Shown here one piece after another: positions 28,999 through 39,440 of a DNA stretch of 39,445 nt. Each line of letters begins with the position of its first letter. The stretch's first letter is position 1. This DNA is from Minisyncoccota bacterium (lineage in GTDB: Bacteria > Patescibacteriota > Minisyncoccia > Phycocordibacterales > UBA918). The notes under the pieces were generated by a model that did not search any database, was not told the DNA's origin, and saw only the letters and a list, made by a program, of their open reading frames with translations. Location: positions 13,965 through 53,409 of the forward strand of contig JALHRC010000007.1 of the NCBI GenBank assembly GCA_022841645.1, written 5' to 3'. The position numbers and the translations under genes were made by a program.

Positions 28999-29028
28999 TA
29001 CTGAATCAACTCTAGAGTTAATTCAGTA
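28999..29028. repeat. 15-bp inverted repeat upstream of the HTH/LAGLIDADG-like gene
   Basis: TACTGAATCAACTCT with AGAGTTAATTCAGTA, no spacer and one mismatch. It follows the nucleotidyltransferase stop and may be its terminator or the end of a mobile unit. A similar hairpin precedes the paralogue at 38.5 kb. Confidence 0.6.
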
Positions 29029-29109: not shown

Positions 29110-29790
29110 ATGGCTAAAACACAGGAAAAGGGGAGAGCTGTGAAGATGAGGCGACAGGGCGTAAGTATTAAAGATATTGCCACTCAGGTCGGGGTCTCTC
29201 CGGCAACAGTTAGCATATGGTGTCAGGATATTTTGCTTACCAGAGCCCAGAAAGAGAAGTTGTTTAAAAAGCAGATTGCGGCTGGACACAAAGGTCGCAT
29301 GATTGGCGCTCTCAAAAATAAGCAGATGAGGCTGCAGAATGTGGCTAATCAGGCAGTGATAGCACAGAGGCGTTTGGGAGGACTTTCCGCCCGTGACCGG
29401 TTTCTTTTGGGGATTGGTCTCTACTGGGGTGAAGGGACAAAGAGCCGTCAATCTGCAACGGCGATAGTAAATTCAGACCCGGACATAGTGCTTTTTGCTC
29501 GTGATTGGTTTGAAAATCTGGGGGTCAATCGATGTGACTTTCGGGTTTACGTATCGATTTCTTCTCTCCATAAGGAACGGGAAATAGCAATTGTTAATTT
29601 TTGGTCTCGTACTTTGGCCATACCAAGGCAGCAATTCAACCGGGTCACCTATTTTAAGACAGCACGAAAAAAGGTTTACGAAAACCACGATTCGTATTAT
29701 GGTATTGTGGCTTTGCGCGTACGAAGGGGAACTGACCTGAAATATATGATTTTAGGTCTTATCGATGCGTGTAAGGTATTGCCGGGGTAG
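29110..29790 (+). CDS. HTH plus LAGLIDADG-like protein ending inside tRNA-Met
   Basis: The N-terminal helix-turn-helix (VKMRRQGVSIKDIATQVGVS then PATVSIWCQ, residues 11-38) is of the resolvase/HTH_23 kind. After a basic linker, residues 100-111 (LGIGLYWGEGTK) resemble a LAGLIDADG motif, with Glu in the catalytic acid position. The rest alternates strands and helices as in single-motif homing endonucleases. The last codons GCC-GGGG-TAG region are shared with tRNA-Met: the stop codon TAG is U8-A9-G10 of the tRNA. A paralogue with the same arrangement is at 38574-39273. Nuclease function is inference. Confidence 0.7.
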   Translation: MAKTQEKGRAVKMRRQGVSIKDIATQVGVSPATVSIWCQDILLTRAQKEKLFKKQIAAGHKGRMIGALKNKQMRLQNVANQAVIAQRRLGGLSARDRFLLGIGLYWGEGTKSRQSATAIVNSDPDIVLFARDWFENLGVNRCDFRVYVSISSLHKEREIAIVNFWSRTLAIPRQQFNRVTYFKTARKKVYENHDSYYGIVALRVRRGTDLKYMILGLIDACKVLPG

Positions 29791-29855
29791 CTCAGTTGGT
29801 TAGTAGCGTGGGACTCATAAGCCCAAGGTCGTGAGTTCGAATCTCACCCCCGGCA
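29781..29855 (+). tRNA. tRNA-Met(CAT), elongator type
   Basis: Acceptor GCCGGGG/CCCCGGC, anticodon arm TGGGA-CTCATAA-GCCCA, T-arm GTGAG-TTCGAAT-CTCAC. The D-arm has an extra T (GTTAGTAGC), leaving three pairs, and there is an A.G pair at 31-39. A CAT tRNA could also be tRNA-Ile2. Its first ten bases double as the end of the upstream reading frame. Confidence 0.88.
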
Positions 29856-29880
29856 CAGCTCAGAGGTGGCGTTTTAGAGA

Positions 29881-30003: not shown

Positions 30004-30294
30004 GCGGGCGTAGCTCAGCTGGTTAGAGCGCTTCCCTGTAGCAATGCAGCTTTCTGTCGAAATGGCAGATTGAAACTTTCCGGGATATCGGTGAAGGCTA
30101 AGTCTTGTAATGAGATATGCGAATACCGAGGGAACCCCATACACACAAACACATAGTGTGGGGGCGCCGTAGAGACTAGATACCGGAACACCTACAAGCA
30201 CATATGCTCACGGTGAAGATATAGTCCATGCCGTTATGAAAATAGCGGATTACATGCACGGAAGAGGCCGAGGGTTCGAGTCCCTTCGCTCGCG
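30004..30294 (+). tRNA. tRNA-Asp(GTC) interrupted by a group I intron
   Basis: Exon 1 (30004-30039) ends in CTTCC-CTGT and exon 2 (30257-30294) begins CAC-GGAAG, so splicing yields a perfect anticodon loop CTGTCAC (anticodon GTC) and a 74-nt tRNA. The acceptor is GCGGGCG/CGCTCGC with one G.U and the T-arm is GAGGG-TTCGAGT-CCCTT. The intron sits between positions 35 and 36. CCA not encoded. The tRNA 3' end is copied twice downstream in tRNA-tail elements. Confidence 0.9.
30040..30256 (+). ncRNA. Group I self-splicing intron in tRNA-Asp (217 nt)
   Basis: The 5' splice site follows a U paired with G of the internal guide (CTGT with GCAG, forming P1). P7 can be drawn as GACTA of GTAGAGACTAGATA with TAGTC of the S element AAGATATAGTCC. 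A GC hairpin (CCCCATAC...GTGTGGGGG) fits P6, and the intron ends in G (30256). Size and site type fit the compact subgroup IC3 introns of bacterial tRNAs. There is no ORF inside. Confidence 0.85.
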
Positions 30295-33416: not shown

Positions 33417-33614
33417 ATGAACAATAATAAGTGGTATTTCACTGCCTCGGCGATTGCTTTCACGGTTATCGCGATTGCGCATCTTGGTCGGATTGTATTT
33501 GAGCTCGAGGCAGTAATCGCTGGGTATCCGATCCCGCTGTGGGCGAGCGGCGTGGCCGTGCTGCTCGCGGGCTACCTAGCGACGCGCGGTTTTATGGAAG
33601 CACGTAAGCTCTAA
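33417..33614 (+). CDS. Small two-helix membrane protein (65 aa)
   Basis: Two hydrophobic segments (about 8-22, FTASAIAFTVIAIAH, and 38-56, IPLWASGVAVLLAGYLATRG) are joined by a loop with Glu residues; the N-terminus MNNNKW and C-terminus MEARKL are polar. I see no known family. It stands alone between terminators, with a TATACT box 8 nt before the ATG and a very strong hairpin after the stop, which supports it being a real monocistronic gene. Confidence 0.7.
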   Translation: MNNNKWYFTASAIAFTVIAIAHLGRIVFELEAVIAGYPIPLWASGVAVLLAGYLATRGFMEARKL

Positions 33615-33631
33615 GCCTTTGCATTGATGTT

Positions 33632-33669
33632 GAAAGCCGTGGCGCCCCGCAAGGGGCGCCACGGCTTTC
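33632..33669 (+). terminator. 17-bp perfect terminator hairpin
   Basis: GAAAGCCGTGGCGCCCC with its complement, tetraloop GCAA, then TTTTT. Its 3' edge lies just before the prfB -10 box. Confidence 0.93.
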
Positions 33670-33676
33670 TTTTTGC

Positions 33677-36230: not shown

Positions 36231-37940
36231 ATGAAAAAAACTCCCCGACCGTCTCGTACCACTTCCGCTCGCCGCACTCCTTCGGTCGCCGCCCCGACCC
36301 CCAAGTATATTTTTGTCGTCGGGGGAGTGATGAGTGGCGTAGGCAAAGGGGTGACGGCCTCTTCAATTGCGTGTGTACTGCAGGCGCGGGGACTGAGGGT
36401 CACGGCACTTAAAATCGACCCGTACATCAATGTCGACGCCGGCACCATGAACCCTACCGAACACGGTGAGGTGTTTGTTTTGCGTGAAGGCCTCGAGACC
36501 GACCAAGACATGGGTAACTACGAACGTTTTCTCAATCTTGATTTGCCGGCCAAAAATTATATGACGACCGGTAGCGTGTATCTTTCGGTCATCAAAAAAG
36601 AACGTAATCTTGAATACGGTGGCAAGAATGTTGAGGTAGTGCCTGATATTCCGCTCGAGGTTATTAGACGAATCAAAACAGCTGCACAAGACGCTATAGC
36701 TGATGTTGCACTTATCGAAGTGGGGGGGACGGTCGGTGAATATCAAAATATTTTGTTCCTCGAAGCGATTCGCATGATGAAGCAAGAGGCGCCAGCGGAC
36801 GTGGTGACGGTGATGGTGAGCTACCTCCCGGTCCCGGGCTCGATTGGGGAGATGAAAACCAAGCCCACCCAGACAGCCGCCCGTACCCTCAATAGCGCTG
36901 GGGTGTTTGCCGACATGATCATCGCGCGTAGTTCGGTGCCGGTCGACGATAAGCGTAAGGCCAAGATTGCCACCTTTTGCAATGTCCGCCAGGAAAATGT
37001 CATTAGCGCGCCGGACGTGGAAAGCATCTACGACATCCCAATAAATTTTGAAAAAGACAATCTTTCACAGCGGCTGTGCGAACTCTTGGGTCTGCCAGCA
37101 AAGGGCCAGGCCGATCTCGGTGCCTGGAAACGTTTTGTGGCAAAGCAAAAGGCTGCGAAGGTGAATAGCAAGCAGGAAGTGACGATCGCCGTGGTGGGAA
37201 AGTATTTTACGACCGGAGATTTTGTCCTCTCTGACGTGTACCTTTCGGTAATTGAATCGATTAAATATTCAGCCTACGCCCTTGGACTCAAGCCCACCAT
37301 TGTGTACCGCTCAAGTGTAGACTTCACCGACAAAAAGCGCTGCAAAGAACTAGATGCTTACGATGGCATCCTTGTGCCGGGTGGGTTCGGTGCAACCGGC
37401 ATCCCGGGGAAGCTTAACGTTATTGAATACGCGCGCACCAAGAAGATCCCGTACTTCGGTATTTGCTACGGTATGCAGCTTGCGGTCCTTGAGTTTGCAA
37501 AAAACGTTCTCGGTCTTAAGCAGGCGAGTACTGAGGAGATTGATCCAAAGGCCAAAGATTTGGTCGTGCATATCATGGACGAGCAACGCGAAAAAATTGC
37601 GCACAGTGACCTCGGCGGCACCATGCGTCTTGGTGAATACCCGGCCGTGCTGGCGGCTGGCTCGCTCGCCCGCAGTGCGTATAAGTCGGCCGAGATTATT
37701 GAACGTCATCGCCACCGCTACGAGATCAACAATGATTATGTACCGGCGCTGAGGGATCGGGGGGTAGTATTTTCTGGCACCTCGCCCGACGGTCGCCTGA
37801 TGGAAATCATGGAGCTCTCGCGTGAGACCCACCCGTTTTTTGTGGGCACACAATTTCATCCCGAATTTCTCGCCCGCCCCTTGCGCCCTCATCCACTCTT
37901 TACGGCATTTGTAAAAGCCGCCTACGAGGAAGGGAAGTAA
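36231..37940 (+). CDS. pyrG: CTP synthase
   Basis: The enzyme makes CTP from UTP, ATP and glutamine. The synthase domain shows GGVMSGVGKG (P-loop, 31-40), KIDPYINVDAGTMNP (61-75) and EVGGTVGEYQN; the glutamine amidotransferase domain has Cys412 in GICYGMQ and His543/Glu545 in HPEF. Compared with usual homologues (about 540 aa) it has about 24 extra N-terminal residues rich in Lys, Arg, Ser, Thr and Pro, echoing the basic tail of the malic enzyme. It is the third gene of the ftsEX transcript by spacing. A later start is not available before the P-loop. Confidence 0.96.
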   Translation: MKKTPRPSRTTSARRTPSVAAPTPKYIFVVGGVMSGVGKGVTASSIACVLQARGLRVTALKIDPYINVDAGTMNPTEHGEVFVLREGLETDQDMGNYERFLNLDLPAKNYMTTGSVYLSVIKKERNLEYGGKNVEVVPDIPLEVIRRIKTAAQDAIADVALIEVGGTVGEYQNILFLEAIRMMKQEAPADVVTVMVSYLPVPGSIGEMKTKPTQTAARTLNSAGVFADMIIARSSVPVDDKRKAKIATFCNVRQENVISAPDVESIYDIPINFEKDNLSQRLCELLGLPAKGQADLGAWKRFVAKQKAAKVNSKQEVTIAVVGKYFTTGDFVLSDVYLSVIESIKYSAYALGLKPTIVYRSSVDFTDKKRCKELDAYDGILVPGGFGATGIPGKLNVIEYARTKKIPYFGICYGMQLAVLEFAKNVLGLKQASTEEIDPKAKDLVVHIMDEQREKIAHSDLGGTMRLGEYPAVLAAGSLARSAYKSAEIIERHRHRYEINNDYVPALRDRGVVFSGTSPDGRLMEIMELSRETHPFFVGTQFHPEFLARPLRPHPLFTAFVKAAYEEGK

Positions 37941-38535: not shown

Positions 38536-38575
38536 GAACATACAATACCACTTATGCCAGTGGTATTGTATGTTC
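38536..38575. terminator. 17-bp perfect hairpin between MazG-like gene and the broken HTH gene
   Basis: Arms 38536-38552 and 38559-38575 are exact complements around TATGCC. It may end the pyrG transcript or mark the left edge of the HTH element, as at 28999-29028. Confidence 0.7.
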
Positions 38576-39273
38576 AGTAAAATCACCAGTTTCGTTAAAG
38601 AACACAGCGGTAGCACTGCGACGGCGAGGAAAAACCTATAGTGAAATCCTGGCTGTGGTACCAGTAGCAAAGTCGACACTATCGCTGTGGCTACGCGAAG
38701 TGGGCCTGAGCACTGCCCAAAAGCGGCATATAACTCTAAAGAGCCAAGATGCGCAGCGGCGTGGTGCCCTGGCGCGTAAAACGCAACGCCTTGCCTCCAC
38801 CTCACAGATAATAAAAGCGCTAAGCGGAAATCGGTGCTCTCACCGCACACGAACTTCTTCTTGTTGGTACGGCGCTTTATTGGGCAGAGGGGTCAAAACA
38901 GGGTGAGCGTACCGTAAGTACGGGACTTATATTTAATAATACTGATACAGCAATGCTTCGAGTATTCCTTAGGTTTCTGCGTGAAGTTATTAAAGCACCT
39001 TGGTCGGATATTACTTTGACCCTGTATATTCACCAAAACCACCGACACCGTGTACCTGATGTAGAGCGCTATTGGCGAAAAACACTTAAGGAGCCACGGC
39101 TCCTATTTGGTGGAGTGTATTACAAACGCCATAATCCCGAGCCGGGGCGGATTAAAATTGGTGAAAAGTACTATGGTACGGTGCGAGTAGTCGTACGTCG
39201 ATCGACCAATCTCTCAAGGAAGATTTCTGGATGGATATGTGGTATAAATGATGCCACTTGCCCGGTCGTCTAA
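38574..39273 (+). pseudogene. HTH plus LAGLIDADG-like gene, frameshifted, ending inside tRNA-Gln
   Basis: Frame 1 gives a helix-turn-helix (ALRRRGKTYSEILAVVPVAK, STLSLWLREVG) aligning with the protein at 29110. Near 38822 an extra A shifts the frame; removing it joins IIKAL to AEIGALTAHELLLVG and then ALYWAEGSK, the LAGLIDADG-like motif, with homology to the end. The last codon before TAA lies in the tRNA-Gln D-arm. No ATG is in frame before the HTH, so the start is also unclear. Both defects suggest decay, or a consensus error in the case of the single base. Confidence 0.7.
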
Positions 39274-39329
39274 CGGTAGGACATCAGGTTTTGGTCCTGA
39301 GTATTGGGGTTCGAGTCCCTGCCGGGCAG
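39259..39329 (+). tRNA. tRNA-Gln(TTG)
   Basis: 71 nt: acceptor TGCCCGG/CCGGGCA, anticodon arm TCAGG-TTTTGGT-CCTGA (anticodon TTG), T-arm TGGGG-TTCGAGT-CCCTG with two wobble pairs. Discriminator G, CCA not encoded. It overlaps the end of the upstream broken HTH gene by 15 bp. Confidence 0.94.
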
Positions 39330-39330
39330 C

Positions 39331-39402: not shown

Positions 39403-39440
39403 CGGAAGCAAACAGTCTGGGAGACTGTTTGAACCGCCAG
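39403..39440. repeat. Hairpin at the right window edge
   Basis: GGCGG...AAACAGTC pairs with GACTGTTT...CCGCC around TGGGA. It may be the first part of another tRNA-tail element after tRNA-Gln, cut by the window end. Confidence 0.4.

Follow-up and report, generated by a model that had tools for sequence, protein, structure and literature searches.

Genes and features at the two tRNA loci

The window, by which we mean the whole stretch of DNA analyzed (the terminal 39 kb of a contig, from a genome of 1.116 Mb with 43 tRNAs), contains two copies of a small gene, one intact and one decayed, each with its stop codon inside the 5' part of a tRNA gene. The features are as follows.

29110–29790, + strand: intact first copy, encoding P0001 (226 amino acids), with its stop at bases 8–10 of the tRNA
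29781–29856, + strand: tRNA-Met(CAT), linked to P0001 (ARAGORN)
30004–30293, + strand: tRNA-Asp whose anticodon loop is split by a group I intron (anticodon read by eye; RF00028, 47.9 bits, E 7.8e-10)
36231–37940, + strand: pyrG (CTP synthase), the conserved upstream neighbor that marks the orthologous tRNA-Gln site (NCBIfam TIGR00337, 639 bits; synteny)
38536–38575, no strand: perfect 17-nt inverted repeat with a 6-nt loop, reaching to the coding start of the decayed copy
38574–38819, + strand: N-terminal piece of the decayed copy (HTH and start of the long helix), lacking a start codon (similarity to L045, profile match)
38779–38842, + strand: stretch of reading-frame change (two profile matches in different frames, overlapping at 38779–38834)
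38842–39273, + strand: C-terminal piece, a single LAGLIDADG-type domain (ALYWAEGSK), with its stop TAA within the tRNA (similarity to L045 and P0001)
39259–39330, + strand: tRNA-Gln(TTG), linked to the decayed copy (ARAGORN; Rfam RF00005, 53.8 bits)

P0001 comprises an HTH (residues 2–37), a long helix (residues 45–89) and a LAGLIDADG-type domain (residues 91–226). At 38574–39273 two frames code for an HTH at the N-terminus and a LAGLIDADG-type domain at the C-terminus, in the same order as in P0001. Both pieces match L045, an intact relative from another species that is likewise a tRNA-Gln member, with 53% identity over 72 amino acids for the N-terminal piece and 39% over 132 amino acids for the C-terminal piece (38842–39270). 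The C-terminal piece is also homologous to P0001 (31% identity, E 3e-14). The initial annotation, which had described two copies of the same gene with the same domain order and had named a lack of homology as a reason to abandon this view, was correct on both points.

The other signs of decay that had been described were found as well. The reading frame changes where the two profile matches overlap, in agreement with a break placed near 38822, and there is no in-frame ATG, GTG or TTG close to the conserved N-terminal part; going in the 5' direction, the first start in frame is GTG 38505, within the upstream gene. The gene ends in the 5' part of the tRNA, its TAA (39271–39273) forming bases 13–15 of tRNA-Gln. 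The catalytic glutamate (see below) is retained. Because of the frame change, the missing start codon and the stop within tRNA-Gln we read this copy as a pseudogene. This would not hold if the frame change near 38820 were an error of the assembly, as it may be, or if an unusual start together with a frameshift were used.

Inverted repeats

The hairpin that the initial annotation placed just upstream of both copies turned out to be two different structures. The arms of the repeat at the decayed copy (38536–38552 and 38559–38575) end at the expected coding start, whereas the palindrome at the first copy (28999–29028) is located about 80 nt upstream of the gene and is unrelated in sequence. The repeat at 38536–38575 is possibly an operator or an mRNA hairpin. 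Across the family, inverted repeats ending at the start codon were observed in 13 of 136 members compared to 12 of 816 control positions, an enrichment that concerns a minority of the genes. Repeats of the other kind are found 45–100 nt upstream of the gene and look like terminators of the upstream gene. A shared hairpin as the end of a mobile element was rejected, since it mixed the two kinds.

Spread of the family and linkage to tRNA genes

A whole-genome protein and profile search yielded five copies in the source genome and no other convincing match. Four of them are followed by a tRNA on the same strand (Met, Gln, Ile(tat) and Gly(gcc)); their stops end on base 10 or 15 of the tRNA, or fall 4 nt short of it. 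The fifth copy and tRNA-Val(tac) are divergently oriented, about 90 nt apart. For a single gene, the expected share with a same-strand tRNA within −100 to +150 nt of the stop is about 0.5% (43 tRNAs in 1.116 Mb). The earlier argument that the arrangement is unlikely to be due to chance, originally based on two cases, can now draw on five tRNA-linked copies, four of them with the tRNA directly downstream.

Family matches are present in 33 of the 38 genomes of the genus and in 30 of 116 genomes sampled from the phylum. A contig scan with P0001 over 84,980 species identified 151 relatives, and the 80 best were retained. These 80 carry Patescibacteria-type or "bacterium" MAG titles with one exception, L119 (Burkholderiales), which is probably mis-binned because it is placed among Nomurabacteria copies in the tree. 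By protein similarity the window groups with Patescibacteria, and the closest relative of P0001 on a named contig among these best 80 of 151 is from Candidatus Kaiserbacteria (53%).

In total 200 copies were classified: 67 from the genus, 78 from the contig set and 55 from the phylum. The identical copies L141 and L149 were left out; some further contigs may come from genomes already counted in the genus. In 158 copies (50, 66 and 42 in the three sets) a tRNA follows directly on the same strand, and most of the others are linked to a tRNA differently, so that the initial annotation's second safeguard, a search for homologues without tRNA linkage, also came out in its favor. The stop is at gap −10, i.e. 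at tRNA bases 8–10, in 40 of the 158, and reads T-A-G in the cases inspected; most tRNAs would offer a stop at this position. In nine further copies (5, 1 and 3) the tRNA is interrupted by an insertion. Eight copies (L096, L046, L140, L151, L159, L272, L283 and L289) are divergent from the tRNA, the 5' end of which faces the gene start across about 65–146 nt; they use the same side of the tRNA in the opposite orientation. Seven copies have the same-strand tRNA upstream, two are convergent and face the 3' end of the tRNA, and three are located at a contig edge.

The classification rule left 13 copies without a linked tRNA. In L041 and L063 a tRNA follows at 162 and 166 nt, and for one copy of G034 the rule overlooked a tRNA at 14 nt. 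Downstream of L044 come a partial second copy and tRNA-Met, and an initiator tRNA with an intron lies divergent to it. In three cases a second insertion has displaced the older copy, and L155 ends 61 nt before the end of its contig. The remaining five (L160, L178, L268, L284 and L290) have no linked tRNA. A target fragment of the type left by WHO elements was considered at L160 and dropped, the similarity covering only 12 nt.

Predicted structure and the catalytic residue

The predicted model of P0001 (pLDDT 95) consists of the HTH, a 45-residue helix and an alpha/beta domain. In a structural comparison with VIA-align the best match was I-DmoI, with a Z-score of 7.2 for 86 residues at 2.7 Å, a value below 8 and therefore not decisive by itself. 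I-DmoI also led the matches outside the HTH when PDB sequences were searched with a profile (E 5e-5). In this alignment LYVAEGDKT of I-DmoI is found under the family motif LYWGEGTK, and by the aligned ranges Glu117 of I-DmoI, which according to the PDB title was mutated for study, lies opposite Glu108 of P0001. Chains of IspF headed the Foldseek list; this fold was discarded, the matches being weak (best E 0.017) and unsupported by the profile search. For the model of a Gly(gcc)-linked member, LAGLIDADG chains came first (Z 8.2), and the matches included a LAGLIDADG intein, I-DmoI, E-DreI and WhiA (Z 5.5). The models thus predict a LAGLIDADG fold for the family. With one such domain per chain, the proteins are presumably dimeric.

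Searches of Pfam, NCBIfam and PHROGs matched essentially the HTH only and gave no recombinase or transposase domain in the family proteins. The family offers a likely identity for short Patescibacteria proteins with HTH-only matches in these databases.

The catalytic glutamate is present in all 104 labeled rows outside the tRNA-Gly(GCC) group, in 11 of the 30 rows labeled Gly(gcc) and in 4 of the 7 unlabeled rows. A loss of catalytic residues as in WhiA is accordingly not a property of the family; it has largely taken place in the Gly(GCC) clade alone.

One clade per isoacceptor

A tree was built from 141 proteins with 132 labeled rows and 18 tRNA labels. The label changes 18 times on this tree, where the possible minimum is 17 and 100 shuffles gave a mean of 86.8 and a lowest value of 79. 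Met, Ile(tat), Arg(cct), Gly(tcc), Gly(gcc), Trp, Val(gac), Val(tac), Arg(tcg) and others form one clade each, or nearly so. Three "Ser(cga)" labels fall in the tRNA-Glu clade, at loci where that tRNA chances to follow. The geometry differs in the tRNA-Glu clade, the members of which are mostly downstream of or divergent from their tRNA. Because the clades match isoacceptors, paralogues within a genome are less close to each other than to copies at the same tRNA elsewhere, a pattern expected of target-dedicated homing genes.

Empty sites, displacement and decay

Twenty tRNA-Gln loci of the genus were fetched. In 12 of them pyrG is located upstream as in the window, giving 13 syntenic loci including the window itself. 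The gene is present at two of these, the window and L229; a look at relatives, as the initial annotation had proposed, gave one further copy among these syntenic loci. At L216 tRNA-Gln follows about 90 nt after pyrG with nothing in between. The gene is a free-standing open reading frame outside any intron or intein and is present or absent at orthologous sites. The earlier description of the decayed copy as a homing gene after fixation of its site is in line with this as far as homing is concerned, judged from sequence; fixation does not agree with occupancy of 2 of 13 loci.

The tRNA-Gln loci show a further peculiarity. Partial copies of the 5' end of tRNA-Gln lie 86–188 nt upstream of the intact tRNA in L214, L218, L219, L224, L225 and L226. 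They end at tRNA position 18–20 (51 in L218) and are separated from the intact tRNA by hairpin-rich inserts; L221 contains a piece comprising tRNA-Gln positions 36–51. These partial copies look like scars of insertion inside the tRNA. The palindrome AAACAGTCTGGGAGACTGTTT (39410–39430 in the window, just 3' of tRNA-Gln at the contig end) recurs beside tRNA-Gln(ctg) pieces in two other genomes (L218 and L221), as a short hairpin element dispersed near tRNAs.

In three genomes (G004, G005 and G034) a second copy with an intact motif is inserted between the resident Gly(gcc) gene and its tRNA. The stop of the displaced residents is 708–713 nt away from the tRNA, compared to 2–18 nt in abutting relatives. 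The insertion point is thus the short spacer at the 5' end of the tRNA. Among the 55 copies from the phylum, 42 look intact and 13 are broken or partial, the latter including weak profile matches and contig ends. Four viral contigs of 55–340 kb also hold family members: L232, L234 and L235 are located just before a tRNA, and L233 before an intron-bearing, initiator-like tRNA.

Repeats of tRNA ends as insertion marks were searched around the genes and were absent; no duplicated tRNA end flanks the family genes. Fragments of the target tRNA on the far side of the gene were not enriched, with 7 of 180 loci at a score of at least 14 compared to 34 of 180 control maxima.

Intron-bearing tRNAs

Eleven copies adjoin a tRNA whose anticodon arm contains an insertion. 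Group I matches above the Rfam cut-off were obtained for L043, L044, L236, L249, L260 and the viral L233, with the flanking tRNA halves assigned by eye; the match at L042 (46.8 bits) is under the cut-off. For L064, L070, L077 and L176 the interruption, in tRNA-Arg-like genes, was read by eye only, and L070 gave no Rfam group I match even at a lax threshold. The intron-containing tRNA-Asp in the window, which lies 3' of the first copy, was missed by ARAGORN, and its RF00028 score is under the cut-off of 50. Two other RNA matches were noted: a sub-threshold Rfam match to sbcD RNA in the window (33514–33673, + strand; 33.8 bits, cut-off 40, E 0.0015), and a run of six group I intron-like matches, all on the same strand, in G003 contig 1 (889–5208), perhaps an intron-rich rRNA gene.

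A promoter-like block in the tRNA-Gly(GCC) resident

The Gly(gcc)-linked member occurs in 30 of the 38 genomes and is the most widespread copy of the genus. We examined 29 copies of the resident type, 25 of which abut the tRNA (0–20 nt). In 23 of these 25 the codons AAT ACT ATA ATC, which contain a TATAAT block, are unchanged while neighboring synonymous sites vary. The two others (L091 and L095) have a different 3' end. The block is absent from the resident at 77 nt and from all three displaced residents. Among 48 conserved amino acid columns, codon invariance is highest in five, namely the Leu, Asn, Thr, Ile and Ile of the block. The Leu codon TTG opens a TTGCAY hexamer exactly 17 nt before TATAAT in 23 of 23 genes (TTGCAT 15, TTGCAC 6, TTGCTT 1 and TTGCAG 1). 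TTGCAY-N17-TATAAT has the textbook sigma-70 layout, and in the Gly(GCC) gene it is apparently a captured tRNA promoter.

Relative to synonymous shuffles, the −10 element gave a mean z of 1.65 over 27 genes of the Gly(GCC) clade. A −10 element in the 3' part of the gene in all clades was rejected, with values of 0.08 for Ile, 0.23 for Met and −0.37 for Arg(cct). By eye, a weaker TTTACG-N17-TATGGT pattern is seen in the Met clade.

The sole usable pair of Gly(GCC) residents gave a dN/dS of 0.12; the others are mostly saturated. As the residents retain full-length proteins under apparent purifying selection, a cellular role is suggested for them.

Proposed mechanism and alternatives

Based on these results, the decayed copy probably belongs to a family of LAGLIDADG homing endonucleases that are free-standing and invade tRNA genes at their 5' edges, in Patescibacteria as well as in the phages of these bacteria. 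Empty sites, second insertions, broken copies, copies on phage contigs and the neighboring intron-bearing tRNAs all fit free-standing homing endonucleases directed at tRNAs. We also lean towards a wider reading, namely a radiation of such endonucleases, each dedicated to one isoacceptor, at the 5' ends of more than 20 kinds of tRNA gene, in some cases alongside a group I intron of the same tRNA. The Gly(GCC) member would have become indispensable in one genus, its coding sequence serving also as the sigma-70 promoter of the tRNA.

We propose the following mechanism. The protein would cut alleles that lack the gene, where leader and tRNA meet or close by, a target site that we infer from the insertion points. 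Repair from the donor would then place a copy of the gene no more than about 17 nt from the tRNA. The tRNA would stay intact, since the 3' part of the gene supplies a promoter or preserves one. Later the gene would decay or be displaced by a new arrival between gene and tRNA. At tRNA-Gly(GCC) the tRNA promoter would have come to lie in the coding sequence, making deletion costly; the gene would be kept for this reason, with the nuclease function lost and the protein retained.

Several observations count against the homing mechanism: far-side tRNA fragments are not enriched, seven copies have the tRNA upstream and two are convergent, and the Gly(GCC) residents are under purifying selection. Codon-level conservation of a promoter is, moreover, clear in the Gly(GCC) clade only.

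As an alternative, the proteins might be cellular regulators like WhiA, with a LAGLIDADG fold that does not cut, each controlling its co-transcribed tRNA. WhiA has the same combination of HTH and LAGLIDADG domain, the latter matches the Gly(GCC) model, and the Gly(GCC) copy, widespread, under apparent purifying selection and with the glutamate in only 11 of 30 rows, would agree with a regulator. We nevertheless consider this unlikely for the family: the glutamate is invariant outside that clade, the genes are patchy at orthologous tRNAs (2 of 13) and in the phylum, and displacement by second copies, decay and the positions beside tRNAs with group I introns do not suit a regulator.

An enzyme acting on the tRNA or its transcript, such as a processing factor, an anticodon nuclease or an intron maturase, might travel with its substrate gene. 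Isoacceptor fidelity and the adjacency to intron-bearing tRNAs would agree with this, and some LAGLIDADG proteins act as maturases according to the accessible part of one account (PMC3984707). Most linked tRNAs are free of introns, though, the N-terminal HTH is of the DNA-binding type, and the gene is missing at the same tRNA in most relatives, which makes such an enzyme very improbable.

Slightly less credible still is an integrating element of one gene, with tRNA genes as its attachment sites, as for many integrases. It would account for a tRNA-specific insertion of one gene with boundaries near the tRNA, but the database matches are confined to the HTH, with no recombinase or transposase domain, and no duplicated tRNA end surrounds the gene. 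Integrases, moreover, mostly use the 3' end of the tRNA. Finally, chance overlap, for which the small genomes and short spacers might speak, is refuted by the 158 of 200 copies with a downstream tRNA where about 0.5% are expected and by the match of clades and isoacceptors, and can be dismissed.

Being conserved and of many kinds, tRNA genes are an ideal niche for homing genes, and one clade per isoacceptor provides a natural panel for the change of LAGLIDADG specificity between targets. If the wider reading is correct, a dead selfish gene would be locked in the genome by the tRNA it once invaded, and the tRNA-Gly case makes it testable how a selfish gene becomes undeletable.

Comparison with known systems

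The single chain of I-DmoI contains two LAGLIDADG motifs, and the enzyme is encoded in an rRNA intron. The family described here shares its predicted fold, and the region of Glu117 of I-DmoI aligns with the motif LYWGEGTK, but its members carry a single motif together with an HTH and do not reside in an intron of their own. WhiA differs from the family in its opposite domain order and its genomic context. Like the family, WhiA (DUF199) combines a LAGLIDADG domain with an HTH, and it has been domesticated as a transcription factor (PMC3984707, accessible part).

In the open-access literature, as far as its text was accessible (including PMC8172020 and PMC7143001), we found no description of tRNA-linked LAGLIDADG genes in Patescibacteria; the free-standing homing genes at tRNAs that we found there are from phages. 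LAGLIDADG genes in rRNA insertions of CPR bacteria belong to the same host group and nuclease superfamily, but sit inside the insertions, and the word "tRNA" is absent from the accessible text of that report (PMC11270868). T4 SegB and other free-standing phage endonucleases resemble the family as homing genes of tRNA regions capable of intronless homing. SegB is a phage-only member of the GIY-YIG family that cuts a tRNA intergenic region, and clades dedicated to isoacceptors are not described in the part of the paper available (PMC2988022). In collaborative homing, the free-standing endonuclease at cyanophage psbA belongs to a different nuclease family, as far as the same partly accessible account goes (PMC3984707), and only 11 of the copies examined in the present family adjoin an intron-bearing tRNA.

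The WHO elements of Torulaspora and Lachancea yeasts, as presented in the accessible part of their description (PMC7282813), are intein-like with a zinc finger, have one main protein-coding target and leave target fragments, whereas the present family combines an HTH with a single LAGLIDADG domain, has more than 20 tRNA targets and showed no target fragments. In both systems, homing endonuclease genes (putative ones in the present family) are parked at the edge of the target, which for WHO is one essential gene. WHO newcomers adjoin the target while older copies are pushed away and decay (PMC7282813); likewise, the newest copy is nearest to the target in three of our genomes, at tRNA-Gly. Further comparable features of the yeast system are one domesticated offshoot, HO, and, in some relatives, an intron at the cleavage site (PMC7282813).
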